From assembly GCA_040219515.1 (NCBI GenBank), contig JAVJSI010000009.1, positions 1-64,000 on the forward strand: a DNA stretch of 64,000 nucleotides, in the 5' to 3' direction. Shown piece after piece: positions 8,958-23,681 of the stretch (its first letter is position 1; the number at the start of each line of letters is the position of its first letter). The stretch is from Acidimicrobiales bacterium. Its GTDB lineage: Bacteria; Actinomycetota; Acidimicrobiia; Acidimicrobiales; Aldehydirespiratoraceae. The position numbers and the translations under genes are program-made. The notes below the pieces were generated by a model. It searched no databases. It saw only the letters and a list, made by a program, of their open reading frames with translations, and had not been told where the DNA came from.

Positions 8958-9718
8958 CTGCAGGATCCATCCGCGTCGAGGGTGTTTCGAAGAAGTTCCG
9001 CCTCGAACGAAACCGCCCCAGTTCGATCAAGGAAGCCATCCTGCGGATCGGCAAGAAGTCCGAGGCGGACGACTTCTGGGTGTTGCGCGACATCGACCTC
9101 GACATCGCGCCCGGATCGTTCTTCGGGCTCATCGGCCACAACGGCAGCGGCAAGTCGACGCTCCTGCGACTCATGGCCGGCATCCATCGACCCACCACCG
9201 GAACGATCGAGTCCGAGGGTCGTCTCTCGGCCCTGCTCGAACTCGGCTCGGGCTTCCACCCCGACCTCACCGGTCGGGAGAACGTCTATCTCAACGGCGC
9301 CATGCTCGGCCTCAGCCGCAAGCAGATGGCGGCGTCGATGGACCAGATCATCAGCTTCAGCGGCATCGGTGAGTTCATCGACGAGCCGGTGAAGATCTAC
9401 TCGAGCGGCATGTACGTGCGCCTCGGCTTCGCAGTGGCCGTCAACGTCGACCCCGAGCTCCTGCTCGTCGACGAGGTCATCGCAGTCGGCGACGAGGAGT
9501 TCCAACGCCGCTGCATGACCCACATGAACAAGCTCCGTGCCGCCGGCACCACGATCGTCCTCGTCTCACACAACACGCAGTTGATGGCGGATCTGTGCGA
9601 CACCCTCGGGTGGCTCGACCACGGCCGGCTGATGAAGTTGGGCGATCCCGACGAGGTCGTCGCCGCCTATCTCGACCATGTCAACCGGGGTGACAACACC
9701 CTCACGACCCGCGATTGA
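8954..9718 (+). CDS. wzt: Polysaccharide ABC transporter ATP-binding protein (Wzt type, short form)
   Basis: The 254-residue ATPase has Walker A GHNGSGKST at residues 61-69, the family-specific ELGSGFHPDLTGREN at 96-110, an ABC signature written YSSGMYVRLGFA at 149-160, and Walker B LLLVDEV at 169-175 followed by a D-loop region. It ends soon after the nucleotide-binding domain, so it lacks the C-terminal carbohydrate-binding domain found in the long Wzt proteins that read a terminal cap on the chain. It pairs with the upstream permease. The last 17 nt overlap the convergent GT2 gene. Confidence 0.93.
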   Translation: MTAGSIRVEGVSKKFRLERNRPSSIKEAILRIGKKSEADDFWVLRDIDLDIAPGSFFGLIGHNGSGKSTLLRLMAGIHRPTTGTIESEGRLSALLELGSGFHPDLTGRENVYLNGAMLGLSRKQMAASMDQIISFSGIGEFIDEPVKIYSSGMYVRLGFAVAVNVDPELLLVDEVIAVGDEEFQRRCMTHMNKLRAAGTTIVLVSHNTQLMADLCDTLGWLDHGRLMKLGDPDEVVAAYLDHVNRGDNTLTTRD

Positions 9719-10688
9719 CGCGGCCGAACAGGAAGCCCACTCCCCACGCCACGTGCATGGTGGCGAACACGGCCATCAGCAGGTAGCGATCGGTCTTTCG
9801 CGGAAGTGAACCCCGCGAATCACGGGCGACGGCGAGCGCGGCACCGCCGTAGGCGGCCGGCACCAGCAGGCCTCGGGCCCGGCCGCGAACGAGTTCGACG
9901 GCCGAGACGAGCAGGCCGATGACCAGCAGCGGCGCCACGGTCTGACGGGGCTGGAGCGAGCGGGGGTTGCGGCGCAACACGTGACGCTTCCACGTGCCGT
10001 ACTCGTAGTACTGCGACGCCAGGCTGCGGAAGGTCGCCCGAGGTTGGTAGGACACGACGAGGGTCGGGTCGAGCCACACCTGGTGGCCGGCCTCGCGCAG
10101 TCGCCAGTTCAGCTCGTAGTCCTGGTTGCGGTCGAGCGTCTCGTCGAAGCCGCCGACTGCCTCCAGCGCGTCACGTCGGAAGACACCCAGATACACGGTG
10201 TCGGTGGGCCCCTCGTAACCGTCTCGGCGGAATCGGGCCGGGCCGGCACCGAACGGCGAGCACATGCCCACCGCGATCACCCGTTGCAGGCCGTTGTCGC
10301 CCACCGGGTGCTGCACTCCGCCCACGTTGGCCGCACCCGTACGGTCGAGGGTCTCCACCGCCCGCTTCAGATAGCGAGGCGGCAGGACGCTCTGCGCGTC
10401 GACCCGCGCGACGATCGGCGCCGACCCCTTGGCCGTGGCCAGGTTGAGTCCGACCGGCGTGCGCCCGGTGGGGTTGGCCACCACGACCACACGGGGATCG
10501 GCTGCCGCGCGGGCCTCGGCGATCTCCCAGGTGGCGTCGCGACCGGGACCGACGGCCACCGTCACCGCGACGAGACCGTCGTAGTCCTGTTCGAGCACGG
10601 CGTCGAGGCATGAGTCGAGCGTTCCCGCGGCATTGAGCGCCGGAATGATGACGTCGACATCAGGACGCAGCGAGTCGTCGGTGCTCAA
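9702..10688 (-). CDS. Family 2 glycosyltransferase with C-terminal membrane helices (ExoA-like)
   Basis: The 328-residue protein starts with a GT2 domain (VDVIIPALNAAGTLDSCL near residue 11). It has VARVDAQSVLPP in place of a simple DxD near residue 92, and NQDYELNWRLREAGHQVW near residue 195. From about residue 250 there are two or three hydrophobic helices, as in the succinoglycan ExoA type. It is coupled by an ATGA overlap to the upstream sugar-phosphate transferase, so it probably adds the second sugar to the lipid carrier. It overlaps the convergent wzt gene by 17 nt. Confidence 0.85.
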   Translation of the reverse strand: MSTDDSLRPDVDVIIPALNAAGTLDSCLDAVLEQDYDGLVAVTVAVGPGRDATWEIAEARAAADPRVVVVANPTGRTPVGLNLATAKGSAPIVARVDAQSVLPPRYLKRAVETLDRTGAANVGGVQHPVGDNGLQRVIAVGMCSPFGAGPARFRRDGYEGPTDTVYLGVFRRDALEAVGGFDETLDRNQDYELNWRLREAGHQVWLDPTLVVSYQPRATFRSLASQYYEYGTWKRHVLRRNPRSLQPRQTVAPLLVIGLLVSAVELVRGRARGLLVPAAYGGAALAVARDSRGSLPRKTDRYLLMAVFATMHVAWGVGFLFGRVNRGS

Positions 10689-12082
10689 CGGGCCGACCGT
10701 CGCAGCATCACGAGCATGGTCTCGGCCATGATCTGGAGGTCGAGCACCGGCGACCAGTTGACGACGTACTGGAGGTCGTGGCCGAGCTTGTAGCCGGGAT
10801 CGGTCTGATAGTGCCCCCGAATCTGGGCCAGGCCGGTGATGCCCGGCGGCAGGTCGTGACGCCGCCCGTAGCCGGGGATCAGCTCCTCGAACGCCTCGAC
10901 GAACTCGGGGCGTTCGGGTCGCGGACCGACGATGGACATCTCACCCTTCAGGACGTTCCACAACTGCGGCAACTCGTCGAGGCGACTCTCGCGCAGCCAT
11001 CTCATGCCCGGGACCACTCGGGGGTCGTCGGCGTCGGCCAACACGGCACCGACGTGGTCCTCGGCGTCCTCGCGCATCGAGCGGAACTTCACCATCGTGA
11101 ACCGTTTCGCGCGGTGTCCCACCCGTTCCTGGCGGAAGAACACACCCTTTCCGACGCGCCATCGCACATAGATGCTCAGACAGAGAGCGAGAACGAGCAG
11201 CGCCGGGGCCAGCACCAGCAGCACGAGGATCTCGAGCATCCGCTTCAGGCGGAGTCGATAATTGGGCACCGCCTGGGCCCGCAGCGCCACGAAGGGCATC
11301 CCGGCGATCTGGCGGCTGCGCTGCAGACCGAGCAGGGTGTCCGAGGGCGAGATCCGGTAGAAGACGCCGACCTTCCCCGCCGCCAGCTGTTCGAGCGGGC
11401 TGGGATAGACGAGATCGAGTGAGTCGCCGCTGAGCAGCAGGACGTCGGTCGCCTGCACCCGACCCACCTGCTCGAGCAGTCCGTCGGCGACCGCGGTCTG
11501 CCCGACGACCGTGGCGTCGCCGCCGGAATCGGCCAGATGGGCACGCGCCAGCGAGATGTCGTCGGGGTTGCCGACGAGGAGAATGCGCGAGGTCCCGTAG
11601 CGGCGGGAGCGAAACCGGCGGGCCACGAAACGACTCACGGCGATGGCGAGGGTCGCGAGACCGAGCAACGCGAGCAGGTTGCCGCGCGGCATCAGATAGC
11701 GATTCGTGGCGAGGCCGGCGGCGGCGGTGCCGAGGATCGCGAGCGATGTCAGGAGGCTGATCTTGGGCAGCATGGGCGGAAGGCCGAGCCGTTGCTCGTA
11801 CTCGTACAAGCCACCGAAGTAGTACGCCGTCATGTGGATCGCCGTCGCGACGCCGAAGCCCACGAGGTAGTGCGAACGTGCGTAGGTGGGCCACTCGACG
11901 CCGAAGCGGGCGAAGGTGATCAGCACCATCAGGCTGTAGAGCGTCAACGCGTCGATGACATGGAGGTAGCGGAACCCGTGCCGTCGCAACCGACGGATGA
12001 CGAACGCCTCGCCACCGTTCGGCGGGCTGTGGGTGGGAGTCTGGTGTGTCCGCATCGTCGGCTCGGCCCGCAGCAGGCTCAT
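10685..12082 (-). CDS. Polyprenyl-phosphate hexose-1-phosphate transferase (WbaP/CpsE type)
   Basis: The 465-residue protein has four or five N-terminal membrane helices (residues about 40-150) and a CoA-binding-like middle domain. The C-terminal bacterial sugar transferase domain starts near residue 275. In it, FFRQERVGHRAKRFTMVKFR and the catalytic Asp-Glu of SRLDELPQLWNV precede GEMSIVGPRPERPEF. This enzyme class starts chain synthesis by placing hexose-1-phosphate on undecaprenyl phosphate. The ATG at 12082 is used; an alternative ATG lies at 12055, and TAGCAT is 22 nt upstream. It heads a two-gene unit with an ExoA-like transferase. Confidence 0.92.
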   Translation of the reverse strand: MSLLRAEPTMRTHQTPTHSPPNGGEAFVIRRLRRHGFRYLHVIDALTLYSLMVLITFARFGVEWPTYARSHYLVGFGVATAIHMTAYYFGGLYEYEQRLGLPPMLPKISLLTSLAILGTAAAGLATNRYLMPRGNLLALLGLATLAIAVSRFVARRFRSRRYGTSRILLVGNPDDISLARAHLADSGGDATVVGQTAVADGLLEQVGRVQATDVLLLSGDSLDLVYPSPLEQLAAGKVGVFYRISPSDTLLGLQRSRQIAGMPFVALRAQAVPNYRLRLKRMLEILVLLVLAPALLVLALCLSIYVRWRVGKGVFFRQERVGHRAKRFTMVKFRSMREDAEDHVGAVLADADDPRVVPGMRWLRESRLDELPQLWNVLKGEMSIVGPRPERPEFVEAFEELIPGYGRRHDLPPGITGLAQIRGHYQTDPGYKLGHDLQYVVNWSPVLDLQIMAETMLVMLRRSAR

Positions 12083-12107: not shown

Positions 12108-13187
12108 CTAACCGCGACGTCGGTTGCCGCGGGCGGCACCGGCCGCCACCACGAGCGCCTCGATCGACTCGTGGGCCGTCGTCACACCGGGAAGAACCGT
12201 GCCCACGGCGGGCGCGAGCGGCACCGACGACGCGGTCACCAGGTCCCATGATGGAACCAGCCGCACACCGCAGTCGTGCAGCTGTTGGGCCAAACTACGG
12301 ACCTTCGCCTGGTCGGACACCACCAGCGCCGGCACGCCGGCCCGAGCGGCCAACACGATCGGGTGATAGCGCGAGCCGACCACCAACCGGGCGCCCATCA
12401 CCCGGCGGACGTGCTCGTCGACGTCGTCCGCCAACACCTCGGCATCGGTGACGAGAGTCGCCGCGAGCTCGTTGGCGATGTCGGCGTCGCGCGCGCCCCG
12501 AAACCGGGACAGAACCACCCGGGCACCGAGCGCCACCGCCAACCGATCCAGCGCGCCGGCGATCGCATCGATCGGCGGCGCCTCGATCCGTCGCGACGCC
12601 GGACTGACCACGCCGGGACCGACGGCGCCCCCGACGCTCACCAGGATCTCTGCTGCCGGCTCGACCGTGGGCAGGTCGAGCCCGAAGACCACGTCGGCGC
12701 CCGTCGTCGCGGTGACGCCGGCGGCGGCCAGGGCGGCCGTCGATGCCTCGTCCCGGGTGATCACCGTCGCGTCGCGCAACGCGTGCCGGAGGAGCGATCG
12801 CGAGGATTGCCGACGAAGCGGCTCGGCGCCGACGCCGATCGCCGCGATCGGGATTCCCCGGCGCCGCGCCGCCAGCACCACGGCGAGGTGTCCGGGGAGG
12901 CTCCACACACTCGAGGAGTCCTGGAGAATGCCGCCGGGTCCGAGACAGACTCCGTCCATCGAGGCGACCGTCGACCATCCCCGCGGCCCCCAGGGGACCG
13001 ACTCGACGCCGTGCAGCGCGCTCGTGCGGGCCGGCTGTCGAGAGGCGATGACCGGGCACGCGCCCGCCGATCGCAACCGCTGGACCATCGCGCGGGTGAG
13101 CAGTTCATCGCCGACGTTGCCCGCGCCCGCCCAGCCGGACACCAGAATCCGGGGCTCGACAGTCGAGGATGCGGCGGGGCTGGACAC
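12108..13187 (-). CDS. Polysaccharide pyruvyl transferase family protein (CsaB-like)
   Basis: The 359-residue protein shows the PF04230 pattern. A glycine-rich start ILVSGWAGAGNVGDELL lies near residue 14, then LGPGGILQDSS near residue 82, and a C-terminal nucleotide-sugar-transferase-like lobe with GSRYHPIVLAARAGVPALVV near residue 290. CsaB homologues transfer pyruvate from phosphoenolpyruvate to a wall-polymer sugar, making the ketal that SLH domains bind. Its position within 1-7 kb of three SLH-like proteins supports that role. It uses a GTG start at 13187, 7 nt from a TAGCGT box, and is divergent from a DPM-like transferase. The substrate sugar is unknown. Confidence 0.82.
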   Translation of the reverse strand: MSSPAASSTVEPRILVSGWAGAGNVGDELLTRAMVQRLRSAGACPVIASRQPARTSALHGVESVPWGPRGWSTVASMDGVCLGPGGILQDSSSVWSLPGHLAVVLAARRRGIPIAAIGVGAEPLRRQSSRSLLRHALRDATVITRDEASTAALAAAGVTATTGADVVFGLDLPTVEPAAEILVSVGGAVGPGVVSPASRRIEAPPIDAIAGALDRLAVALGARVVLSRFRGARDADIANELAATLVTDAEVLADDVDEHVRRVMGARLVVGSRYHPIVLAARAGVPALVVSDQAKVRSLAQQLHDCGVRLVPSWDLVTASSVPLAPAVGTVLPGVTTAHESIEALVVAAGAARGNRRRG

Positions 13188-13194
13188 TCCGCGG

Positions 13195-13200
13195 ACGCTA
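13195..13200 (-). promoter_or_regulatory. -10 box TAGCGT, leaderless start
   Basis: TAGCGT on the minus strand is 7 nt upstream of the GTG at 13187, and no ribosome-binding site lies between. Confidence 0.45.
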
Positions 13201-13210
13201 CCCCTGCTGC

Positions 13211-13216
13211 TAACGT
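13211..13216 (+). promoter_or_regulatory. -10 box TAACGT
   Basis: TAACGT is 9 nt upstream of the ATG at 13226. With the divergent TAGCGT at 13195-13200 it gives both genes their own short promoter in a 38-nt gap. Confidence 0.4.
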
Positions 13217-13225
13217 CATCGGACC

Positions 13226-13957
13226 ATGGCGAGCACCGTTCAACCCCGACTCTCCGTCGTGATGCCCTGCTACAACGAGACCGCCACGATCGACGAGATC
13301 GTGAAACGGGTCCTCGCGAGCCCCCACACGGCCGAGCTGATCATCGTCGACGACGGTTCGACCGATGGCACGCGAGACCGGCTCGCCACCTTCGACGACG
13401 AGCGGGTCCGCGTCGTTCTCCAACCCGAGAATCGGGGGAAGGGCGCGGCGATCCGTCGCGGGTTCGAGGAAGCCCGGAGCGAGTTCGTGATCGTGCAGGA
13501 CGCCGACCTCGAATACGACCCCGTCGACTACGACCTGGTGCTCGAACCGCTGCTCAGCGGGGCCGCCGACGTGGTCTACGGCAGCCGTTTCCAATCGAGC
13601 CGACCGCGCCGGGTGCTCTACTTCTGGCACTCGGTCGGCAATCGGATGCTCACGTTGCTGTCCAACATGTTCACCGACCTGAACCTCACCGACATGGAGA
13701 CGTGCTTCAAGGCGTTCCGCACCGAGGTCGTGAAGAGCCTCGATCTCACCGAGGACCGCTTCGGCATCGAGCCCGAGATCACCGCCAAGGTCGCCGCCGG
13801 AGGTTGGAGCGTGTGGGAGGTCGGCATCTCCTATTCCGGACGCACCTACGCCGACGGCAAGAAGATCAACTGGCGCGACGGCGTCGCTGCGGTGCGCTGC
13901 ATCGTGAAGTACGGCGTCGAGACGCGTCGCAGTCGCCCGAGCCATCTGCGCGGCTAG
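13226..13957 (+). CDS. Dolichol-phosphate-mannose-synthase-like GT2
   Basis: The 243-residue protein has the GT2 nucleotide-binding start LSVVMPCYNETATIDEIV near residue 9, the IIVDDGSTDGT motif near residue 37 and the metal site VIVQDADLEYDP near residue 87. NRGKGAAIRRG and YGSRF are the hallmarks of the DPM1/GtrB-type polyprenyl-phosphate glycosyltransferases. No C-terminal membrane helices are present, so it resembles the soluble single-domain form. It likely loads a sugar on polyprenyl phosphate for use outside the membrane, for instance by the YfhO-type protein (inference). Its last bases overlap the convergent subtilase stop. Confidence 0.9.
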   Translation: MASTVQPRLSVVMPCYNETATIDEIVKRVLASPHTAELIIVDDGSTDGTRDRLATFDDERVRVVLQPENRGKGAAIRRGFEEARSEFVIVQDADLEYDPVDYDLVLEPLLSGAADVVYGSRFQSSRPRRVLYFWHSVGNRMLTLLSNMFTDLNLTDMETCFKAFRTEVVKSLDLTEDRFGIEPEITAKVAAGGWSVWEVGISYSGRTYADGKKINWRDGVAAVRCIVKYGVETRRSRPSHLRG

Positions 13958-15846
13958 AACAGCGCGAGATCCGGCGGTGCGACCGCACCGGTCCAGGCCG
14001 CCGGCGCGTCGGCCAGTCGGAACTCGAAGGTGACCATCTGGGCCCGGGAGACGGTGTCGCCCGGCGAGAACGAGAACGGCGTGGTTCCCGTCGTCACCCC
14101 GTTCTCCGCCATCCAGGCGACGGCCGTCGCATAGAACGCGCCCGGCGCCACATCGCGAAAGCCGGACCCGAACGCCGGGGACGGCTGTCCGGCGGTGCGC
14201 CACATGAAGGTGGCCAACTGCCCGCGGGTGACCGGTTCGTCCGGCGAGAACCGTCCCGGTGCGGTGCCGGTGGTCACGCCGACGGCCGACGCCCACGCCA
14301 CCGCCTGGGTGTACCACTCACCCGTCGCCACATCGTCGAACACCGACCCGTTCCCATGGTCGGGCGACCCCATGAATCGCCAGAGGAAGGTGACGGCCTG
14401 GGCCCGGGTGAGCGAGCCGTCGGGGACGAAGGAGTTCGTGCCGATCCCGGTGGACACGCCCCTCACCTTGGCCCAGTCGGCCGCCTCGACCCAGTAGCCG
14501 TCGACGGCATCGACGAAGGGAACGAAGTCCACCAGTGGGCCGAGCCGGAGCTCGGGATAGCGCGGATCGTGGTCGAACGGGTTGGGGGTCGTGCGCTCGA
14601 CCATCGAGCCCGCCACCCGCAGAAGGTTGCGCGTCCGCGCCACCGACCATTCGGACGGGAGCCGCTCATCCACGAGGGCGAGGGCCGCGGCCACGTGCGG
14701 CGCCGAGAACGAGGTGCCGGTCTGGTCGGCGAAGCCCGACGGGTCGAAGCTGTCGAGCACCGTCGTCATGATCGGGCCACCGGGCGCCAGCAGGTCGAGG
14801 TCGGCGCTCGTGTTCGAGAAGCCGGCGACGGCGCCGGCGGCATCGGTGGCACCGACGGCCACCACCCCGGGGAGACAGGCGGGAAAGCTCACGGCATCGA
14901 CCCACCCCTGGTTCCCGCTTGCCGCGACGACTGCGATACCGGCGGAGGCGAGACGATCGATCACGTCCTCCCACACTGCGTCCTCACAGCCCTGAGGGGA
15001 ACCGCCGAGGCTGAGGTTGACGGCGGCGATGTCGAACGTGTCGCGGAGTGCGTAGACCTCTTCGAGCGCGGCCAACACCCCGGCCTCCGGAATGTAGGTG
15101 CGATAGCGCTCTTCGGGATCGGTGGCGTCGAGGTCGCCGTCGACGACGGCGGTCACCCGCAGGGCGATGATGCCGGCATCGGGCGCCACCCCGGCGAGCG
15201 CGGCGTCGTCACCGGAGATCACCCCGGCGACGGCCGTGCCGTGGGTGCAACTCAGCGGGATGGTGACGCAGGGTGTGGCCGTGGGGCTGCGGCGCTCACC
15301 GTTGTCGCACTGCTCGACGACGTCGATCTGACCGTTGTCCGAGATGCCGTCGAGGAAGCACCCCTGGGCGACGACCGAGCTGCCGAGGTCTGCGTCGACC
15401 AGTCCGGGATGGTCGTCATCGACCCCGCTGTCGATGACGGCGACGACACGCCCCTCGCCGCTGTACCCCTCGATCCGGAAGTCGGTGGCGCCGACCGTGG
15501 CGGTGCTCTCGTCGAGGGTGAGCTGCAGATCGTCGCGAGCCGTTCTCACCGACGCCACCGAAGCCGACGATTCCAGCGCCGCGAGGCCGTCGAGTGTCAC
15601 GTCGGCCGCCATGAGATCCAGGGATTCGAGCACTCCGGTGGTCTCGATGCCGTCGGACAGGTCGAGCAGACTCGCCTGGATCGGCGCGTCGCCGGGAACC
15701 CCGAGATCGACGAGATCGACGATCACCGCCACAGTGTGGTCGGCCTCGCTGCCGCTCGGCTCCCCGCCCTCCGCTGCGCCGGCGCGCCCGTGGGTCGACA
15801 GCAACACCGCGAGGGCGGCGACCGTGACGAGCGGGATGCGACGCAT
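13954..15846 (-). CDS. Secreted subtilisin-like serine protease with three SLH-like repeats
   Basis: The 630-residue protein begins with a signal peptide (RRIPLVTVAALAVLLSTHG, ending near AGAAE) and a propeptide-like segment to residue 130. A peptidase S8 domain follows with Asp139 in VVAVIDSGVD, His202 in HGTAVAG, Asn312 in ASGNQG and Ser379 in GTSFSAPHVA, so all catalytic residues are present. Residues 449-625 hold three SLH-like repeats ending in TRAQAVTFLWR, TRGQLATFMWR and SRAQMVTFEFR. The frame is open further upstream, but the ATG at 15846 with GGAG before it places the signal peptide correctly. It probably processes or turns over proteins at the wall, to which the repeats would hold it. 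Confidence 0.93.
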   Translation of the reverse strand: MRRIPLVTVAALAVLLSTHGRAGAAEGGEPSGSEADHTVAVIVDLVDLGVPGDAPIQASLLDLSDGIETTGVLESLDLMAADVTLDGLAALESSASVASVRTARDDLQLTLDESTATVGATDFRIEGYSGEGRVVAVIDSGVDDDHPGLVDADLGSSVVAQGCFLDGISDNGQIDVVEQCDNGERRSPTATPCVTIPLSCTHGTAVAGVISGDDAALAGVAPDAGIIALRVTAVVDGDLDATDPEERYRTYIPEAGVLAALEEVYALRDTFDIAAVNLSLGGSPQGCEDAVWEDVIDRLASAGIAVVAASGNQGWVDAVSFPACLPGVVAVGATDAAGAVAGFSNTSADLDLLAPGGPIMTTVLDSFDPSGFADQTGTSFSAPHVAAALALVDERLPSEWSVARTRNLLRVAGSMVERTTPNPFDHDPRYPELRLGPLVDFVPFVDAVDGYWVEAADWAKVRGVSTGIGTNSFVPDGSLTRAQAVTFLWRFMGSPDHGNGSVFDDVATGEWYTQAVAWASAVGVTTGTAPGRFSPDEPVTRGQLATFMWRTAGQPSPAFGSGFRDVAPGAFYATAVAWMAENGVTTGTTPFSFSPGDTVSRAQMVTFEFRLADAPAAWTGAVAPPDLALF

Positions 15847-16013
15847 TCTGGCTCCGTTCGGGCGAGGCGGATGTACCACTCCGTATTCAACACCAGTAAC
15901 TTCGGCACCGTGGTTCGGGCCCTGAGACTTCTCGTCGAGGTGACGCACACAGACGGCGCACTTCCCGTAGATTGGGGATCTCCTGTCGCGGGCGGTCCGC
16001 CAATGGGATCCCG

Positions 16014-17972
16014 ATGATTCGTCTGCCTCTCCGTCGCTTCGCCCTCGCGGTGCTCATCACGCTGGTCGCCTTCGGCGCCGCGCCCGTCGCCGCTGACACC
16101 CCCGTGCCCACGATCAGCTTCATGGGCGGTGGATTCGGCCACGGCATCGGCATGTCGCAATACGGCGCGCTCGGTCGCGCCGAGGCCGGGCACACCTACG
16201 ACGAGATCCTCGGCTTCTACTACCCGGGCACCACCCGTCAGCCGATCCCCGGCCCACTCGGCGACGACAACGACATCGACGTGCGCCTCGGCGTGCGCTC
16301 CACCGTGGCGATCACCCCCGCCGGCGGCGATCTCGCCTTCGCCATGACCGGTGGCGAGGTGTTCGCCACCTCGCCCGGCCCGGTCACGGCGACGTACCTC
16401 CCTCCTTCCGGCCCCGAAACACCGGGCAAATGGCGCCTCCTGGTCGGCAGCGGCGCCGAGCAGGTCGACCTCTGCGCGGCGTCGGCCTGCACCGGCCAGC
16501 TGGGCATCACCACGACGGGAACCCACGTGCTCGTGACCGAGGGCCCCGGAGGCGCCGGTATCGGGGTCCCCCGCGGCGGTCCGTCCTCGGGGGCCTACGC
16601 CCGAGGCAGGATCCTCCTTCGTCCCGGCGCCACCGGCGGCAACTGCGGGAGCGCCACCGACTTCTGCGTCGTGCACGGCGACCTCGCCATCGACGACTAT
16701 CTGCGGGGTATCGCCGAGATCCCCCAGTCCTGGCCCATCGAGGCGCAGAAGGCGCAGGCCGTCGCCGCCCGCAGCTACGCCGCATCCGCCGTCATCCGCC
16801 GAAACGGCAACGGCAACGCGTGGGACGTCGTCAACGACACCGGCGATCAGTACTACGTCGGCTACGGCGTCGAACTGTCCGGCTGCCTCGAGTGGTGCAA
16901 AGGCATCGACGCGACCGCGAACGAGATCCTCACCCACGGTGGCGTCATCGCCGAGACCTACTACTCGGCCTCCAACGGCGGCGCGACGGCCGAGCCGCCC
17001 CACGTATGGGCGTCCGGCTCAACCCGGCCCTATCTCGTCGCCAAGGCCGACCCGTTCGACGGCAACGACGCCAACCCGTACCGGGCCCGAGAGGTGGCCT
17101 ACCCGCTCGCCGACGTTTCCCGCTGGCTCAACGAGTACCACCTGCGCGTCCCCGACGCCGGCGATCAACTCCAGGTCGGCACCGTGCGAGCCATCACGAT
17201 CGAGGACGTTCCCGCTTCCGGCCGCCTCAACTTCGCCGAGGTGACCATCGTCGGCACGAAGAAGACGGTCGTGGTCACGAACTCCGACGGCAGGCCCTAC
17301 GGCGAACGGTTCTACAACGCGCTGAAGCTCGGGTGTCAGGCCACGTTGCTCTGCGATCCACTCGTCTCGTCCAACTTCTCGCTCCTCCGGCTGATCTCGT
17401 TCACCGACGTCGAGTTCGACGACTACTTCTACGTGCCCGTCCTCTGGATGACCACCGAGGAGCTGACCACCGGCGTCACGCCCACCACGTTCGGGTCCGG
17501 AGAGTCCAACACCCGGGGTCAGTTGGCCACCTTCGTCTGGCGTTTCGCGGGCAAACCGCAGGCCACGGTCCCCCACGGGTTCACCGATCTCGTCGCCGAC
17601 AGCTACTACGAGGACGCGGTGGCCTGGATGAGAGAGAACGGCATCACCACCGGCACCTCGCCGATGGAGTTCACCCCCCAGGGCTCCGTCACCCGAGCCC
17701 AGGCGGCCACCTTCCTCTGGCGCTTCGCCGGCGCACCCGAGTCGACGGCCGACCACGACTTCACCGATGTCCCCGACGATCGCTACTTCACCGAAGCGGT
17801 CCGTTGGATGGTCGAGTGGGACATCACCACCGGCACGACGCCCACCACGTTCGCTCCGGAGGAGCCCCTCACCCGGGCCCAGATCGCCACGTTCCTCTGG
17901 CGGCTGGCCGGTGCCCCCGGCGCGTTCGCCGAGGGTGTCGAACTTCCCGCGGCCATGAGGACCACGTCGTGA
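16014..17972 (+). CDS. SpoIID-type secreted protein with three SLH-like repeats
   Basis: The 652-residue protein has a signal peptide (IRLPLRRFALAVLITLVAFG) and the SpoIID start GGGFGHGIGMSQYGALGRA near residue 36. The SpoIID core follows with YLRGIAEIPQSWPIEAQKA near residue 227 and TYYSASNGGATA near residue 310. SpoIID enzymes are lytic transglycosylases that cut peptidoglycan strands lacking stem peptides. From about residue 460 there are three SLH-like repeats with TRGQLATFVWR, TRAQAATFLWR and TRAQIATFLWR. The ATG at 16014 is chosen because it directly precedes the signal peptide. Its stop overlaps the amidase gene by GTGA, which pairs glycan-strand and peptide cleavage enzymes in one operon, as SpoIID and SpoIIP do in other bacteria. 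Confidence 0.92.
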   Translation: MIRLPLRRFALAVLITLVAFGAAPVAADTPVPTISFMGGGFGHGIGMSQYGALGRAEAGHTYDEILGFYYPGTTRQPIPGPLGDDNDIDVRLGVRSTVAITPAGGDLAFAMTGGEVFATSPGPVTATYLPPSGPETPGKWRLLVGSGAEQVDLCAASACTGQLGITTTGTHVLVTEGPGGAGIGVPRGGPSSGAYARGRILLRPGATGGNCGSATDFCVVHGDLAIDDYLRGIAEIPQSWPIEAQKAQAVAARSYAASAVIRRNGNGNAWDVVNDTGDQYYVGYGVELSGCLEWCKGIDATANEILTHGGVIAETYYSASNGGATAEPPHVWASGSTRPYLVAKADPFDGNDANPYRAREVAYPLADVSRWLNEYHLRVPDAGDQLQVGTVRAITIEDVPASGRLNFAEVTIVGTKKTVVVTNSDGRPYGERFYNALKLGCQATLLCDPLVSSNFSLLRLISFTDVEFDDYFYVPVLWMTTEELTTGVTPTTFGSGESNTRGQLATFVWRFAGKPQATVPHGFTDLVADSYYEDAVAWMRENGITTGTSPMEFTPQGSVTRAQAATFLWRFAGAPESTADHDFTDVPDDRYFTEAVRWMVEWDITTGTTPTTFAPEEPLTRAQIATFLWRLAGAPGAFAEGVELPAAMRTTS

Positions 17973-19873
17973 TCTCGCGCCGCCGGGTCCTTCAGACCGC
18001 GGCGGCGGTCCCCGCGCTCGGTCTGCTGCCGGGTTTCGTCAGGACAGCCGGCGCGAACGCCGGCACGCCCGTGGGCGCCGGCGCCATCGTCGAGGCCGAC
18101 GGCCTCACCGGTCTCTCGCTGAGCTGGACGGGCGATACGCACACCGGTGCAGTGGTGCGGGCGCTCGTCGACGGCACCTGGGGCCAGGACATCGAGGTCG
18201 AGAGCGACCACGGCCACGGACCCGATGATCCGTCGGGCCGAGCCCACGGACCCGCCGTGATGGTGCCCGGGGCCGAGGCCTACTGGGTTGCGAACCGGGG
18301 CGTCGACGACCTGCGGGTCCACGAGATCACCGCCCCCGAACGGCGGCTGCGAGCCGCCGCACTCACGATCGTCACCCCGATTCCGGGGCTCGAGATCATC
18401 GATCGCAGCAGTTGGACCGACATCCCCCGCCGCGACACCATCGATTGCGCCCTCACCACCTCGGTGTTCGGTCTCGGCTGTCGCGCCGACGTCGGTCTTC
18501 GCCACGGCATCGTCCATCACACCGTCAACCCCAACGGCTACTCGGAGTCGGCCGTCCCCGACCTGATCCACGGCATCCAGCGGTACCACGTCGACACACG
18601 GGGCTGGGACGACATCGGCTACAACTTCGTGATCGATCGATTCGGCCGCATCTGGCAGGGGCGCGAGGGCGATCTCTACGAACCGATCGCCGCCGGGCAC
18701 ACCACCGGCCTCAACGGCGAGAGCGTCGGCGTCGCCGTGCTCGGCACGTTCAGCACCGACACCGTCCCTGACGCCGTCGTGGAGTCGCTCGGCCTGCTCC
18801 TCGGGTGGAAGTTGAGCCTCCACGGTGTCGACCCACTCGGCCACACGCTGGTTCGGTCGGCGGGCAGCGACCTCGCCGAGCCCGGAGAATTCGTCGATGT
18901 CGACAACATCAGTGGCCATCGAGACAACGGGCAGACGTCATGCCCCGGCACGGTCCTCTACGAACGACTCGACGAGATCCGTTCGGCGGCCGCCGAACTG
19001 GTGCCGGTCTTCGGTCACCTGACACCCACCTACAGTCTCGACGACGTCCGCTGCGAGGGCTGGGTGATCGATCGTTTCTCGCCGGCCGAGGCGCAGGACA
19101 TCGAGATCATCGTCGATGGTGGCGAGCCCATCGTGATCACCGCCGACGGCGAGGTCGACGACCTGGCCGACGACTATCCCGACGCCGGCGCCGCCCACGG
19201 TTTCGACCACACCGTGCCGATCGACCTCGACACCACGTCCATCGTGGTCCGGGCCACGGCCGCCGACGGCCGCACCGCCGATCTCATGGACCTCACCCTG
19301 TTCGCCACGTTCGTGGATGTGGAGCCCACGCGGTTCTTCGCCCCGGGCGTCTACTATCTGCGCCAGAAGGGCCTGACCACCGGCACCCGGCCGGGCCTCT
19401 TCGAGCCGATGGACCATGTCACCCGTGGCCAGATGGCCACCTTCCTCCATCGGTTCATGGACCTGCCGCCATTCACCGCGCCGGCACCCTTCGTCGACCT
19501 GGTCGAGGGTGCCTTCTACGAGGCCGCCGTGAACTGGCTCTACGAGTCGGGCGTCACCACCGGCACCTCGCCCACCACGTTCGAGCCGGAGGCCTTCGTC
19601 ACCCGCGGTCAGATGGCCACGTTCCTGTGGCGGATGTGTGGCCAGCCGGCCGCGCAGTCGTCCGCCGTGTTCTCCGACGTACCCTCGGGCGCCTTCTACG
19701 AGAAGGCCGTCGCCTGGATGGCCGAGCTCGGGATCACCACCGGCATCTCGCCCACCCTGTTCGCCCCGCTCGACAGGATCCGGCGCGGCGAGATGGCCAC
19801 CTTCCTGCAGCGGCTCGGCACCACCCCTGAAGCCTGGACGCTGGTCGAGCCGCCCTCCGCGGTCGACTTCTAG
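17969..19873 (+). CDS. PGRP-type N-acetylmuramoyl-L-alanine amidase with Tat signal and SLH-like repeats
   Basis: The 634-residue protein starts with GTG inside a GTGA overlap. It opens with a twin-arginine-like signal (ISRRRVLQTAAAVPALGLLP). A peptidoglycan-recognition/amidase-2 domain spans about residues 140-335. Zinc ligands are visible as His in GIVHHTVNP and as His and Cys in SGHRDNGQTSCPG, and GYNFVIDRFGRIWQGR is the family core. A beta-rich region follows, then three SLH-like repeats with TRGQMATFLHR, TRGQMATFLWR and RRGEMATFLQR. The predicted reaction is removal of stem peptides from peptidoglycan. The last repeat is the only one of nine in this cluster with the canonical Glu at the motif end. 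Confidence 0.93.
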   Translation: MISRRRVLQTAAAVPALGLLPGFVRTAGANAGTPVGAGAIVEADGLTGLSLSWTGDTHTGAVVRALVDGTWGQDIEVESDHGHGPDDPSGRAHGPAVMVPGAEAYWVANRGVDDLRVHEITAPERRLRAAALTIVTPIPGLEIIDRSSWTDIPRRDTIDCALTTSVFGLGCRADVGLRHGIVHHTVNPNGYSESAVPDLIHGIQRYHVDTRGWDDIGYNFVIDRFGRIWQGREGDLYEPIAAGHTTGLNGESVGVAVLGTFSTDTVPDAVVESLGLLLGWKLSLHGVDPLGHTLVRSAGSDLAEPGEFVDVDNISGHRDNGQTSCPGTVLYERLDEIRSAAAELVPVFGHLTPTYSLDDVRCEGWVIDRFSPAEAQDIEIIVDGGEPIVITADGEVDDLADDYPDAGAAHGFDHTVPIDLDTTSIVVRATAADGRTADLMDLTLFATFVDVEPTRFFAPGVYYLRQKGLTTGTRPGLFEPMDHVTRGQMATFLHRFMDLPPFTAPAPFVDLVEGAFYEAAVNWLYESGVTTGTSPTTFEPEAFVTRGQMATFLWRMCGQPAAQSSAVFSDVPSGAFYEKAVAWMAELGITTGISPTLFAPLDRIRRGEMATFLQRLGTTPEAWTLVEPPSAVDF

Positions 19874-19881
19874 CCTCGGGC

Positions 19882-20949
19882 TCAGCCGTTCGCGTCGGGT
19901 ACCCGGCGGCCGGCGAGTTCGTAGGTCCAGGCGGTGAGATCGTCGACCGGGTCGCCGCACCACGCCAACATGGCTCGTCGCCCGTGGTCGTGGGCCCGTT
20001 GGACCTCCTCGCGATCGGCCAGGACCCGTTCGAGTTCGGCGAAGAACGCCGCCTCGTCGCTGAGCAGGAACGCCCTGGTGAGGCCCCAGCGCTCCTCGAG
20101 TTCGACCTGATACGGGTGGCGTCCGGCCCAGGTGTTGAACCGCAGCGACGGTGTCCCGATGACGCCGGCTTCCGAACACACGGTCTGGCTGTCACCGACC
20201 ACGAGGTCGGCGGCCGCGAGGACGTGGTGGAACCGATGGTGCGCCGCAGTGATGCGCCGCTGGACCAGATCGGCGGGGAGATCGGCCTCCGAGGAGATCA
20301 GCACGGTGCCGGTGGCCGACAACATCTCGATCACCCGGTCGATCTGCGGGCGCGACATCCCGGCCTCGCTCACGTCGTGACTGGCGGTGAACGCGGTGAG
20401 TCGCAGCACGTGGAAGTTCTCGTCGGCCGCGAGCCCGAGCTCGGGGCGGATGTCGGGATCGGGAACGAAGCGTGACGGGTGGAGGTAGAAGAGTTCCTTG
20501 TAGCCCTGGTAGCGCCGGTGCTGGCGCCCGTAGCTCTTCTCGGTCGCGGAGGGACTCGCGATGATGTTCGCCAGCGGCCCGGCCACGTAGTAGAGCAGCC
20601 CGGCGACATGGCCGTCGTCGGTGTCGTACATCACCGGCGTGCGGGTCAGCCGGGCTGCGTGGACGCCGGCCGGCGATCGGGTGAGGACCACATCGGGCCG
20701 AAAGGCTCGGACCGTGCGCAACGCCCGCCAGTCGCGGACCAGCAGCTCGCGGGCCAACCCGAACATCGACGTGCCGGCGGTGGATGCTCGCACGTGTGGG
20801 CGCCGACGGGCCTCGATGAGCTCGACCACCGAGTCCTTCCCGGGCCGGGAGAGCCAGAGGGTCTCCTCGCCGTTGGCGAGCAGCCGGTCCTCGACCGCGC
20901 CGAGCGTCCACACATCGGCGGGGTGCACCGCATCGATCAACACCTTCAT
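19882..20949 (-). CDS. DUF354-like UDP-sugar-type transferase/epimerase fold protein
   Basis: The 355-residue protein, from the ATG at 20949, begins VLIDAVHPADVWTLG and has a two-lobe GT-B-like pattern. FRPDVVLTRSPAGVHAARL lies near residue 85, and a C-terminal lobe has AADLVVGDSQTVCSEAGVIG near residue 248 followed by PSLRFN. This matches the DUF354 family, which resembles UDP-GlcNAc 2-epimerases and GT-B transferases. A longer in-frame start at 21015 would overlap the divergent gene and is rejected. TACCGT lies 8 nt upstream. Its position among glycan genes suggests a sugar-transfer or sugar-modification role, but the reaction is unknown. Confidence 0.75.
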   Translation of the reverse strand: MKVLIDAVHPADVWTLGAVEDRLLANGEETLWLSRPGKDSVVELIEARRRPHVRASTAGTSMFGLARELLVRDWRALRTVRAFRPDVVLTRSPAGVHAARLTRTPVMYDTDDGHVAGLLYYVAGPLANIIASPSATEKSYGRQHRRYQGYKELFYLHPSRFVPDPDIRPELGLAADENFHVLRLTAFTASHDVSEAGMSRPQIDRVIEMLSATGTVLISSEADLPADLVQRRITAAHHRFHHVLAAADLVVGDSQTVCSEAGVIGTPSLRFNTWAGRHPYQVELEERWGLTRAFLLSDEAAFFAELERVLADREEVQRAHDHGRRAMLAWCGDPVDDLTAWTYELAGRRVPDANG

Positions 20950-20957
20950 CCCGGGCG

Positions 20958-20967
20958 ACGGTAGCGT
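20958..20967. promoter_or_regulatory. Ten-base bidirectional -10 element
   Basis: ACGGTAGCGT reads TAGCGT on the plus strand, 6 nt before the ATG at 20974. On the minus strand it reads TACCGT, 8 nt before the ATG at 20949. Both divergent genes would be leaderless and would compete for one site in a 24-nt gap. Confidence 0.45.
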
Positions 20968-20973
20968 CGCGGA

Positions 20974-21870
20974 ATGCCCGACGCGCTCCGCCGACTCCTG
21001 GATCAGCGCGCCCAACCGCTGCCACCCCGGCTACGGACCGCCCTTCTGCTGACCTCGGGCATCGGCGTCGTCGTCGCCTCGGTGTGGGCCTGGCGATCGA
21101 GTGGCCTCGCCGTCGCCGACATCGACTGGCTCCCCATCGTCATCTCGTTCGCGATCGCCGCGCCGGCGAGCCTCGGGTTGAAGGCCGCCGAATTCCACGT
21201 GGCGGCCCGGGTCGCCGACCAGACGCCGCCGGCCCGCCGCAGCGTCGAGGTGGCGGTGATCTCCTCCGCCGCGAACCTGCTCCCCCTACCCGGATCCCTC
21301 CTCGTCACCGTGCGCTCCCTCTCGGAGGACGGCTCGACCTACGGCCGCGCGATCGCCGCATCCGCGGTTCCCGGCCTGGCCTGGCTCGGAATCACGGGTC
21401 TCGTCGGGGGCGTGGCCATCGGCCTGGAAGGCACATGGTGGCTCGCCGCCCTCGTCGTCGCAGCCGGATTCGGCGCCGGTCTGGGCGCGGCGTTGCTGTT
21501 CCGGGCGAACGCGCCGACGGCCGGGCGCGCCGGGCTCGCGGCGGCGGTCATCGCCGTCGAGAGTGGTTGGCTGGCGATCAGCGCACTCCGCCTCGGGCTC
21601 GCGGTCAGCGCCCTGGGCGTCTCGATCGACCCGACGCAGGCCGTGGCGCTCTCCGTGGCCGGGGCGCTCACCGTGGCGATCGGATTCTTCCCCGGCGGGC
21701 TGGGCGTACGGGAGGCGCTCATCGCCGCGCTGGCGCCACTGATCGGCCTCCAGTTCGACACGGGCGTGCTGCTCGGCAGCCTCGACCGGGTGATCTGGCT
21801 CGCGTTCTTGGCCGTGGCGGCCGGCGCGCTCGCGCAGGCCAACCGAGCGGGCCGACGCGCGCTCAGCTGA
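20974..21870 (+). CDS. Lysylphosphatidylglycerol-synthase/flippase-like membrane protein
   Basis: The 298-residue protein has about seven hydrophobic segments and no soluble catalytic domain. ISSAANLLPLPGSLLVTVRS near residue 90 and IGFFPGGLGVREALIAALAP near residue 232 match the membrane part of the LPG synthase/UPF0104 family, where FPGGLGxRE is the characteristic loop. Members without the synthase domain are thought to move or expose lipids or lipid-linked sugars. It diverges from a DUF354-like gene and its 3' end overlaps rmlD on the other strand by 8 nt. Substrate unknown. Confidence 0.75.
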   Translation: MPDALRRLLDQRAQPLPPRLRTALLLTSGIGVVVASVWAWRSSGLAVADIDWLPIVISFAIAAPASLGLKAAEFHVAARVADQTPPARRSVEVAVISSAANLLPLPGSLLVTVRSLSEDGSTYGRAIAASAVPGLAWLGITGLVGGVAIGLEGTWWLAALVVAAGFGAGLGAALLFRANAPTAGRAGLAAAVIAVESGWLAISALRLGLAVSALGVSIDPTQAVALSVAGALTVAIGFFPGGLGVREALIAALAPLIGLQFDTGVLLGSLDRVIWLAFLAVAAGALAQANRAGRRALS

Positions 21871-22699
21871 GGCGGGCCACCAGTTCGGCCAGCGGCGCGC
21901 GGAAGTCGCGGGTCTCGGGCAACCCCGACAGACGCAGGGCCATGTTGTCGAGCACCGAGTTCGCCGGCCGCGGCGCCGGATAGTCCATGCCCAGCTCCTC
22001 GGTGCTGCACGGGTTCACGCGGGACGGATCGGCGCCGGCCGCCGTCGCGACCTCGCGAGCGAACTCGAACCAGCTCACCGCACCCTGGTTGGTGACGTGG
22101 AACAGCCCGGGCCGCCTGGCCAGGGCCAGGTCCCGCAACACCGGGGCCAGGTCGGCGGTGAAGGTCGGGTGTCCGACCTGGTCGTCGACGAAGGTCAGCG
22201 TGTCGTGTTCCCCCAGGAGCCGCAGGATGGTCTTCACCATGTTGTTGCCGTGTTCGCCACACACCCAGGCGGTGCGCACGACGGTGGCCCCGAACCCGGC
22301 CTCGCGCTCGCCGGCCAGCTTCGACCGCCCGTAGACCGACACCGGACACGGTTCGTCCCACTCGTTGTACGGGCCGACCTTCGTGCCGTCGAACACGTAG
22401 TCGGTCGACACCGAGGCGAGGTGGGCACCGACGGCGTGCGCGCCCTCGGCCAGGTGGCGAACGGCGAGCGCGTTGACCGAGTACGCGAGATCGACCTCGG
22501 TCTCGCAGAGGTCGACCGCCGTCAACGCTGCGCAGTTGATCACCACATCGGGGCGCAGCTCGTGGAGCGCGCCGAGCACCATGGCGCGGTCGGCGATGTC
22601 GAGCTCGGGAAGGTCGACGGCGACGACCTCGTGGGGCTCGAGCAGTGGCTGGATCTCCGTACCGAGCTGACCGTTGGCTCCCGTGACCAGGATCTTCAT
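21863..22699 (-). CDS. rmlD: dTDP-4-dehydrorhamnose reductase
   Basis: The 278-residue protein is an extended SDR with NAD(P)-binding KILVTGANGQLGTEI at the N-terminus, SVSTDYVFDG near residue 103 and the active-site Tyr/Lys of VYGRSKLAGE near residue 127. The family feature TAWVCGEHGNN follows. It makes the last step to dTDP-L-rhamnose, reducing the 4-keto group. It is the last gene of the rmlA-rmlC-rmlB-rmlD run, 13 nt after rmlB, with GAGAGG upstream of its ATG. The product feeds the glycosyltransferases of the flanking loci. Confidence 0.95.
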   Translation of the reverse strand: MKILVTGANGQLGTEIQPLLEPHEVVAVDLPELDIADRAMVLGALHELRPDVVINCAALTAVDLCETEVDLAYSVNALAVRHLAEGAHAVGAHLASVSTDYVFDGTKVGPYNEWDEPCPVSVYGRSKLAGEREAGFGATVVRTAWVCGEHGNNMVKTILRLLGEHDTLTFVDDQVGHPTFTADLAPVLRDLALARRPGLFHVTNQGAVSWFEFAREVATAAGADPSRVNPCSTEELGMDYPAPRPANSVLDNMALRLSGLPETRDFRAPLAELVARLS

Positions 22700-22712
22700 C
22701 GAGCTGGGCCTC

Positions 22713-23681
22713 TCATCGAACAGCCGCCGTGTTCGCCTTCAGCGGCTCCCACCAGGCCCGATTGTCCCGGTACCAGGCGACCGTCTTCTCGAGACCCTCG
22801 GCGAAGTCCTGGGCCGGTGCCCAGCCGATGGCCTTCAGCTTCGAGCAATCGATCGAGTAGCGACGGTCGTGACCCAGGCGGTCCTCGACGTAGTCGATGG
22901 CGGACTCGTCACGCCCGCAGAGTTCGATCAATCGGTCGGTCAGCTCACGGTTGGTGATCTCGTTGCCCCCGCCGATGTTGTACACCTGGCCCGGTTCGGC
23001 GTTGCGCAACACCACGTCGACGCCCGAGCAGTGATCGGCGACGAACAACCAGTCACGGATGTTCATCCCGTCGCCGTAGAGGGGCACCGTGCCGCCGTCG
23101 AGCAGGTTCGTGGTGAACAGCGGGATGACCTTCTCGGGGAACTGGAACGGTCCGTAGTTGTTCGATGCCCGGGTGACGATGACCGGCACCCCGTAGGTCG
23201 TGAAGTAGCTCAACGCGATCAGGTCGGAACCGGCCTTCGACGCCGAGTAGGGAGAACGGGGGTCGAGGCCGTCGGTCTCGACCGAGGAGCCCTCTTCGAC
23301 CGAGCCGTAGACCTCGTCGGTCGACACGTGGAGGAACTTGTCGACCTCGAGATGGCGGGCGACGTCGCACATGACGTTGGTGCCGTCGCAGTTCGTGCGC
23401 ACGAAGGCGTCGGGGCCGGAAATGGACCGGTCGACGTGGGACTCGGCCGCGAAGTGCACGACCTGGTCGCAGCCCTTCATCGCGGCGGTGACGGCGTCGC
23501 GGTCACAGATGTCGCCCTCGACGAACGACACCCGCGCCCCGAGCACGTCGGCGATCGAGGCCATGTTGCCCGCATAGGTCAACGCGTCGAAGATCACGAT
23601 CTCGTCATCGCTCGTCTCGAGCACGTGACGGACGTAGTTGCTTCCGATGAATCCGGCGGCGCCGGTGACGAACAGCTTCAT
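22713..23681 (-). CDS. rmlB: dTDP-glucose 4,6-dehydratase
   Basis: The 322-residue protein has FVTGAAGFIGSNYVRHVL at the N-terminus, HFAAESHVDRSI near residue 76, the catalytic region STDEVYGSVEEGS near residue 117 and YSASKAGSD near residue 143. The family C-terminus has NIGGGNEITNREL. It converts dTDP-glucose to dTDP-4-keto-6-deoxyglucose. A strong AAGGAGA ribosome-binding site precedes the ATG at 23681. It lies between rmlC and rmlD in the same operon. Confidence 0.96.
   Translation of the reverse strand: MKLFVTGAAGFIGSNYVRHVLETSDDEIVIFDALTYAGNMASIADVLGARVSFVEGDICDRDAVTAAMKGCDQVVHFAAESHVDRSISGPDAFVRTNCDGTNVMCDVARHLEVDKFLHVSTDEVYGSVEEGSSVETDGLDPRSPYSASKAGSDLIALSYFTTYGVPVIVTRASNNYGPFQFPEKVIPLFTTNLLDGGTVPLYGDGMNIRDWLFVADHCSGVDVVLRNAEPGQVYNIGGGNEITNRELTDRLIELCGRDESAIDYVEDRLGHDRRYSIDCSKLKAIGWAPAQDFAEGLEKTVAWYRDNRAWWEPLKANTAAVR

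Follow-up and report, generated by a model that had tools for sequence, protein, structure and literature searches.

Introduction

How pyruvylated wall polymers anchor SLH proteins is known from detailed work on a few Firmicutes. In Bacillus and Paenibacillus, SLH domains with pyruvylated polymers, the presence of csaB in an S-layer gene cluster and hydrolases carrying SLH domains are all known (PMC6801904, PMC6030368, PMC5938343, PMC6081394). Deletion of csaB in B. pseudofirmus led to loss of SlpA from the wall fraction and growth in chains; SLH proteins of Bacillus depend on csaB, and SLH peptidoglycan hydrolases and a serine proteinase occur in the same organism (PMC5938343). In P. alvei SpaA, SLH-Gly29 is needed for a backbone flip, SLH-Arg43 binds the pyruvate and position 13 is Trp (PMC6081394). 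The Y14A and R207D variants of P. alvei CsaB are inactive (PMC10435577), and the relevance of these SLH and CsaB residues was shown experimentally (PMC6081394, PMC10435577). Here we analyse a CsaB-like polysaccharide pyruvyl transferase gene and three neighbouring genes for SLH proteins in a stretch of 64,000 nucleotides (hereafter the window; positions 1 to 64,000 of contig JAVJSI010000009.1) from the genome of an Acidimicrobiales bacterium (GCA_040219515.1; 4.02 Mb, 19 contigs, labelled G000 in our survey).

In the available text of one review, SLH domains are noted in Actinobacteria, but Firmicutes and Cyanobacteria are given as the main groups with CsaB-like enzymes (PMC6801904); in that of a 2025 review, actinobacteria are mentioned once, for the mycomembrane (PMC12175726). 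A survey of open-licence literature, judged by titles and abstract openings, returned no work on SLH/CsaB anchoring in Acidimicrobiia. We found that the pairing of CsaB and SLH recurs in many related genomes, and therefore wall anchoring of the Firmicutes type probably operates here.

The CsaB-like enzyme and its SLH neighbours

A first-pass annotation of the window had read a CsaB-like gene beside a subtilase, a SpoIID-type protein and an amidase with three SLH repeats each, and searches with PF04230, TIGR03609 and SLH profiles bore this out (Table 1). The CsaB-like open reading frame (ORF) scored 83.3 bits against PF04230 (cut-off 25.3). Its sole NCBIfam match (E up to 0.1) was TIGR03609, S_layer_CsaB, at 168.7 bits (E 1.8e-49) over model positions 1-295 of 301. 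A scan of GTDB genome contigs gave 141 relatives, and among the best 80, which were kept, the closest full-length homologue (63% identity) belongs to an Acidimicrobiales metagenome-assembled genome. Residues R145, R273, H275 and K295 correspond to R148, R306, H308 and K328 of the phosphoenolpyruvate (PEP) site of P. alvei CsaB. They are invariant in an alignment of the window enzyme with 34 of the 80 named loci (35/35), and likewise in a second alignment of it with 17 sequences (18/18). Moreover, a profile built from 14 homologues matched yeast Pvg1p (5ax7, E 4e-4), across the R273/H275 stretch only, where these residues pair with R337 and H339. R145 is paired only in a sub-significant stretch, and K295 shares a loop with Pvg1p K361 but is offset from it. 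The AlphaFold2 model of the enzyme (pLDDT 94.0) matched GT-B enzymes in general and is thus not discriminating; Pvg1p was not among the 50 matches listed by either program. A phmmer search of the PDB with the lone window protein gave one match (E 0.19), which was regarded as chance. Pyruvyl transfer is predicted for this enzyme from its sequence.

The whole-protein SLH (PF00395) scores were 80.8 bits for the subtilase, 67.2 for the SpoIID protein and 90.6 for the amidase (cut-off 20.8). Pfam alone gave three SLH stretches in both the subtilase and the amidase and two in the SpoIID protein, whose third was found with a local model. The SpoIID protein contains a SpoIID/LytB domain (PF08486, 48.9 bits, cut-off 23; TIGR02669, 157.8 bits, cut-off 83.3), and the amidase has a weak twin-arginine translocation (TAT) signal at 19 bits, under the cut-off of 22.7. 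Judged by the translations, the presumed motifs are all retained: Asp, His and Ser in the subtilase, His and Cys in the amidase and Glu in the SpoIID domain.

Forty-one SLH-bearing ORFs were found in the genome, two of them cut by contig ends and a few showing one or two repeats. Among the 107 repeats of the genome, Gly29 is kept in 106/106 and Arg43 in 107/107 of those with a residue there. Position 13 is aromatic (Phe, Tyr or Trp) in about 92% of them, being mostly Phe or Tyr rather than Trp; all nine repeats of the window retain Gly29, Arg43 and an aromatic residue at 13. The SLH proteins of the genome include S8, Amidase_2, 5_nucleotid_C and Beta-lactamase domains, and one SpoIID domain occurs among the 39 that were scanned (the ORFs not at contig ends).

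Of the three trimers in the window, that of the amidase was modelled, from 36 sequences, and shows the three-pronged spindle fold (pLDDT 95.9, predicted template modelling score 0.90). Its closest PDB folds were two SLH trimers of Sap (3pyw, Z 21.7, root mean square deviation 2.4 over 174 residues; 6bt4, with a pyruvylated ligand, Z 21.2), followed by SpaA SLH trimers, most with pyruvylated ligands (Z 17.3 to 19.1). Thus, the comparison of the repeats with SLH trimer-pyruvate complexes that the annotation had proposed returned SLH trimers solved with pyruvylated sugars among the best matches. A sequence profile of the SLH trimer also recovered the Sap and SpaA trimers, and the SLH domain of OmpM was a poor match to the amidase trimer (E 2.3).

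Co-occurrence of CsaB and SLH in Acidimicrobiia

The class was surveyed in 247 genomes, a CsaB call requiring a TIGR03609 match of 120 bits or more that spans almost the full model. CsaB of this type was found in 21 genomes, all of which contain SLH matches, and SLH matches were found in 44 of the 247. Eleven further SLH genomes bear a fusion of a family 2 glycosyltransferase with CsaB (GT2-CsaB), and hence SLH is present in 32/32 genomes with a CsaB type (Fisher p 1e-30, from raw counts that ignore genome relatedness). A PF04230 gene of any kind occurs in 63 genomes, namely these 32 and 31 that have only other PF04230 types, and SLH matches were absent from all of the latter. The idea that any PF04230 gene marks an SLH genome was therefore rejected (0/31). 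CsaB types were found in family labels f1, f11, f18, f29, f32, f35, f40 and f43, and SLH in the same eight labels plus f30 and f38.

One or two PF04230 loci from each of the 31 SLH-less genomes were then scored with local CsaB models. With one exception (L067, see Discussion), they reached at most 111 bits with the model for standalone CsaB and CsaB-GT and at most 44 bits with the GT2-CsaB model, and three match neither; in L065, L068 and L196 a weak match to the GT2 model (16-42 bits) lies in the same frame. Members scored 310-454 and 467-522 bits on the same two models, values that are inflated as the members themselves built the models. The clean split between CsaB and other types is partly by construction, because the type boundary was drawn after the SLH result had been seen. 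One locus counted as standalone, L052, reached no more than 124 bits once it was left out of the model, but the number of CsaB genomes stands, because its genome (G207) also has a GT2-CsaB type.

Linkage and fusion architectures

Loci were taken as stretches of up to ~10 kb either side of CsaB, and SLH repeats were located by six-frame scans. SLH was found near CsaB in 17/21 standalone or CsaB-GT loci and in 11/12 GT2-CsaB loci (the exception being L056), i.e. in 28/33 overall. Conservation of the gene neighbourhood across Acidimicrobiia, which had been put forward as a check on the annotation, was therefore upheld by both genome co-occurrence and linkage. A SpoIID domain was near in 9/16 standalone, 0/5 CsaB-GT and 8/12 GT2-CsaB loci; the stretches of L062 and L064 end within the SpoIID gene, so that any SLH tail would lie outside them. 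Among the hydrolases beside CsaB, SpoIID-SLH is the most frequent, and this placement looks specific because one in 39 SLH proteins has a SpoIID domain and yet it lies near CsaB in two architectures.

With an SLH repeat 827 bp from csaB, the probability of chance placement is ~0.04 in this genome alone. A cautious estimate combining the worst genome per family over seven families by Fisher's method, with p = 1 for f11 and f32, which have no SLH nearby, gave p ~0.003, SLH gene numbers elsewhere being taken as first-look repeats divided by 3. Chance placement of the three SLH genes beside csaB was rejected on this estimate and on the recurrence of the linkage across loci.

The GT2-CsaB fusion is ~860 amino acids (aa) long and carries a family 2 glycosyltransferase at its N-terminal end and a CsaB-like domain at its C-terminal end. 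It was found in 12 loci (L053-L064), those of the 11 SLH genomes and that of G207, where it occurs besides the other copy; L055 is cut by a contig end. These loci form a single group in the tree (support 99/97), apart from the other types, and represent another pyruvyl transferase architecture linked to SLH. Standalone CsaB and CsaB-GT do not form single groups, and L065, L066 and L069, from SLH-less genomes and on long branches, share a weakly supported fork (92/79) with them. It is therefore the TIGR03609 score, rather than the tree, that separates standalone/CsaB-GT from other types. A relative of the GT2 domain of the fusion occurs within the standalone-CsaB stretches L034 and L046-L051 (195-225 bits, the gene being unassigned per stretch), which suggests that the fusion links sugar transfer to pyruvylation. 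In L033, L036 and L038-L040, a CsaB-like domain is followed by a C-terminal coiled stretch and a glycosyltransferase-like domain, by reading (850-890 aa).

Named relatives and the wider phylum

Thirty-six of the 80 named loci are labelled Acidimicrobiia, including, by our own placement, Ca. Microthrix, MedAcidi and two Dive96 bins. SLH was near CsaB in 22/36, and within these 22 loci we found SpoIID in 17, PGRP in 5 and S8 in 7. Five of the other 14 are contigs 3 to 7 kb long, and the stretches of the remaining nine measure 10.8 to 15.5 kb. Much of the block seen in the window is repeated in order in L079, L080, L092, L093, L111 and L114. Amongst other Actinomycetota, SLH was near in 4/5 loci of Nitriliruptoraceae and Egibacteraceae and in 3/9 other records so labelled. 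For other phyla the count was 2/30, which is no test, because the SLH model was built from Acidimicrobiia repeats. The named loci and the class sample overlap (L076, L084 and L087 with G075, G205 and G105).

A sample of 296 genomes was used for the phylum, with full-length CsaB defined as TIGR03609 at at least 115 bits starting within the first ten model positions. SLH was found in 68/296 and full-length TIGR03609 in 31/296, 27 of which also have SLH. Six or more SLH matches were found in 33 genomes, and full-length TIGR03609 is present in 26 of these. The remaining seven have weak or split matches (G338, G436, G455, G464), a fragment (G404, and G424 at a contig end) or a weak fragment (G417). 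CsaB thus tracks the SLH-rich genomes of the phylum sample, and the coincidence of CsaB and SLH is therefore not special to the class. Eight genomes of f58 and f70 (G251, G265, G279, G302, G323, G353, G401 and G431) exceed the curated CsaB cut-off; CsaB frames in these families are ~590 aa and SLH genes are many, and in G251, G279 and G302 the two lie on the same contig a few kb apart.

Gene content of the locus

The cell-surface block that contains these genes spans 6.8-26.8 kb of the window (Table 1). Profile matches confirmed the nearby ATP-binding cassette (ABC) exporter and hexose-phosphate transferase of the first-pass annotation, and reading of the translations together with gene order in relatives agreed with its dTDP-rhamnose genes. 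The top NCBIfam models for the exporter ATPase are teichoic-acid and galactan exporters, both under cut-off. The family 2 glycosyltransferase at 13226..13957 is retained as a neighbour of CsaB across many relatives, the rmlDBCA gene order is repeated in several, and the Wzx-like flippase adjoins rml in several as well. An alternative TTG start for the SpoIID-SLH gene is possible at 15972. The genome has one LytR-CpsA-Psr match, unlinked to the locus. Scans for tRNA genes and for Rfam families at the gathering threshold gave 0 matches.

Table 1. Features of the cell-surface block in the window, with two examples of the GT2-CsaB fusion from related loci.
Feature	Position	Strand	Evidence
O-antigen ligase/polymerase-like (Wzy-like) membrane protein	6851..8173	-	PF04932 41.9 bits for 6854-8092
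ABC-2 polysaccharide exporter, membrane subunit	8136..8957	+	PF01061 50.8 bits
ABC polysaccharide exporter, ATPase	8954..9718	+	PF00005 77 bits
Family 2 glycosyltransferase	9702..10688	-	Pfam/NCBIfam profiles
Polyprenyl-phosphate hexose-1-phosphate transferase (priming enzyme)	10685..12082	-	PF02397 189.5 bits; TIGR03025 294.2 bits (cut-off 295.55)
CsaB-like polysaccharide pyruvyl transferase, 359 aa	12108..13187	-	PF04230, TIGR03609
Family 2 glycosyltransferase, dolichyl-phosphate-mannose-synthase-like by reading	13226..13957	+	Pfam/NCBIfam profiles
Exported subtilase, C-terminal SLH trimer	13954..15846	-	SLH ~14014-14517; Peptidase_S8 125.8 bits
Exported SpoIID/LytB protein, C-terminal SLH trimer	16014..17972	+	SLH ~17400-17906; SpoIID 48.9 bits
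N-acetylmuramoyl-L-alanine amidase (Amidase_2/PGRP), possible TAT signal, C-terminal SLH trimer	17969..19873	+	SLH ~19310-19816; Amidase_2 53.4 bits
Presumed DUF354-like protein, member of conserved block	19882..21015	-	0 Pfam, 0 NCBIfam matches
LPG_synthase_TM-like membrane protein, member of conserved block	20974..21870	+	PF03706 34.6 bits (cut-off 33.4)
rmlD, rmlB, rmlC, rmlA (dTDP-rhamnose)	21863..25444	-	named by reading translations
Wzx-like flippase	25513..26775	-	named by reading
GT2-CsaB fusion, examples	L060:9536-12160; L062:7818-10397

Elsewhere in the window, a single ORF at 36180-37829 contains LplA-B_cat (LipB-type) and lipoyl synthase (LIAS_N, Radical_SAM) domains and is an apparent LipB-LipA fusion. 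At 32306-34154, LigD primase-polymerase and Ku genes (end-joining repair) adjoin.

Discussion

Taken together, we consider it likely that an SLH anchor built on a pyruvylated polymer explains this locus. The polymer would be primed by the hexose-1-phosphate transferase and extended by family 2 transferases, with the CsaB-like enzyme pyruvylating at least one of its sugars in the cytoplasm. The ABC transporter would then export it, and the lone LytR-CpsA-Psr protein may tie it to peptidoglycan. Outside the cell, the C-terminal SLH trimers of ~41 exported proteins would grip the pyruvylated sugar, by which the proteins would be held in the wall. The amidase may strip stem peptides before the SpoIID-type enzyme cuts glycan strands, probably denuded ones; B. 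subtilis SpoIID digests only naked strands (PMC6635528). In other bacteria such a pair acts together because peptide-free strands are what SpoIID attacks (PMC6635528). Acting in sequence, the two enzymes of the window could serve wall remodelling or cell separation, and the subtilase may process the pair.

Several observations weigh against this explanation. The window enzyme, at 168.7 bits, is under the curated TIGR03609 cut-off of 213.1, and for this reason we call it CsaB-like and not CsaB. The acceptor residues Y14 and F16 of P. alvei are A20 and A22 here (GYYGF versus GWAGA), and the Arg of the LRP motif, taken for R207, is Gly or Pro in the window's family; these correspondences are presumed from motif position and spacing. 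A match to TagA/WecG (PF03808) was absent from 22 of the 29 CsaB genomes searched for it, the window's genome among them. Linkage is also incomplete, as no SLH was found near CsaB in 4/21 standalone or CsaB-GT loci (L038, L040, L041 and L033, a 5 kb contig). In the class survey, 12/44 SLH genomes had no PF04230 match (G050, G062, G098, G101, G109, G166, G172, G195, G204, G216, G222 and G232). Conversely, L067, from the SLH-less genome G131, is a standalone gene that is sister to the GT2-CsaB group and scores 121 and 174 bits with the two local models. In the phylum sample, full-length TIGR03609 occurs without SLH in 4/31 genomes (G321, G399, G433, G471), and 41/68 SLH genomes are without full-length TIGR03609, 34 of these having 1-4 SLH matches. 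Lastly, an SLH gene is likewise found 1.5 kb from a second PF04230 gene of the window's genome, which is of a different type.

With regard to the SLH genomes without PF04230, 7 of the 12 (G050, G098, G101, G109, G172, G204, G232) have a genus-mate that bears a CsaB type; such genomes may reflect either assembly gaps or a CsaB-independent anchor. The second PF04230 gene (L002:1351-2535; contig C18, 261-262 kb) adjoins a Wzc-like gene, by reading, and its SLH neighbour is L154. It is possibly a second pyruvylation enzyme for SLH ligands.

It could be argued that the CsaB-like enzyme decorates a capsule or exopolysaccharide, and that the SLH genes merely share a broad surface region and bind something else. 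The ABC exporter, priming transferase, Wzy- and Wzx-like proteins and rml genes are indeed typical neighbours in exopolysaccharide loci, the class has other PF04230 enzymes in genomes that lack SLH matches, and both the second PF04230 gene and the acceptor motif would fit such a role. However, CsaB types were never found without SLH in the class sample, as opposed to the other PF04230 types, the separate GT2-CsaB group of the tree also lies beside SLH genes, and CsaB coincides with the SLH-rich genomes of the phylum too. We therefore regard this alternative as unlikely. Slightly less probable still is that the window enzyme has lost its activity, or changed it to another acceptor or donor, with the architecture of the locus kept. 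This would account for the score under cut-off and the altered positions presumed to match Y14, F16 and R207. Nevertheless, all 35 diverse sequences retain the PEP-site residues and the linkage persists within the same clade. Both suggest that the enzyme is active, perhaps on another acceptor. That SLH trimers bind peptidoglycan or an unpyruvylated anionic polymer, as we take OmpM of Negativicutes to do, with no need for CsaB, is improbable, for although the SLH genomes without PF04230 and the preference for Phe or Tyr at position 13 would agree with it, every repeat with a residue at the ligand positions 29 and 43 retains Gly and Arg respectively, CsaB co-occurs with SLH, and the closest folds are Sap and SpaA trimers, most with pyruvylated sugars, OmpM matching poorly.

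If the locus does encode a pyruvylated-polymer anchor, the acceptor sugar may not be N-acetylmannosamine (ManNAc), because the acceptor positions differ, the score is under the CsaB cut-off and no TagA/WecG match was found in the genome. The CsaB genomes differ among themselves here: of the 29 tested (out of 32), 7 have a TagA/WecG match and 22 an Epimerase_2 match, including the window's genome, where it is on another contig. Epimerase_2 lies within 2.5 kb of CsaB in 10 (G030, G082, G105, G137, G144, G149, G176, G189, G199 and G213). Rhamnose as a constituent of the polymer, which the first-pass annotation had suggested, is a guess from the gene neighbourhood and found no support beyond it. 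We tentatively put forward a more specific scheme, doubtful in its entirety, in which the SLH ligand of Acidimicrobiia is a pyruvylated sugar other than ManNAc, made through a rebuilt CsaB acceptor site (with GT2-CsaB adding and pyruvylating the sugar in a second lineage), and in which it anchors the amidase and SpoIID for cell separation outside endospore formation.

The annotation had further proposed that the polymer docks a protease and two hydrolases. The anchoring itself is supported by the co-occurrence and linkage of CsaB and SLH and by the predicted trimer fold, but this number is too narrow, as ~41 SLH proteins are probably served. Its view that such a unit was undescribed in the lineage agrees with our finding no paper on the class, although csaB-dependent SLH hydrolases are known in Bacillus (PMC5938343); the coincidence of CsaB with SLH-rich genomes is also seen in other Actinomycetota. 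The anchoring logic is thus already known, and what is new here is the lineage, the changed acceptor motif, the fusion forms and the conserved hydrolase neighbourhood. This actinobacterial class is largely uncultured, and the conserved block suggests that members of it, like other Actinomycetota, retain much of the surface proteome by such anchoring. A testable role thereby becomes available for ~41 proteins of a single genome, and the identity of the acceptor sugar becomes a well-defined question for biochemistry. The kept SpoIID/amidase neighbourhood suggests that, of the functions involved, wall remodelling is coupled to the anchor most tightly.

Among described systems, the locus is close to that of P. 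alvei, in which SpaA and SlhA, CsaB and a pyruvylated ManNAc polymer work together: the CsaB model is matched nearly end to end, SLH Gly29 and Arg43 are shared and polysaccharide genes adjoin. Unlike P. alvei, the host is an actinobacterium and the presumed acceptor residues differ. Moreover, P. alvei uses TagA (PMC6030368), for which the window's genome gave no match, and SpaA carries its SLH domains near the N-terminus whereas those of the window proteins are at the C-terminal end. The SLH proteome of B. pseudofirmus OF4 includes an amidase, a serine proteinase, a 5'-nucleotidase and a beta-lactamase, and is alike in that one csaB is accompanied by many SLH enzymes, peptidoglycan hydrolases and a protease among them. 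However, the available rows of its table include no SpoIID-SLH protein, which here is the commonest hydrolase beside CsaB. Propionibacterium freudenreichii likewise has actinobacterial SLH surface proteins (SlpA, SlpB, SlpE and InlA), but csaB and 'pyruv' each have 0 occurrences in its genome paper (PMC4714504). Finally, the pairs of SpoIID and amidase in engulfment and in Chlamydiales division are similar in that both enzyme domains are expected to cooperate; in the window, unlike in those pairs, the amidase and the SpoIID protein both carry SLH tails.

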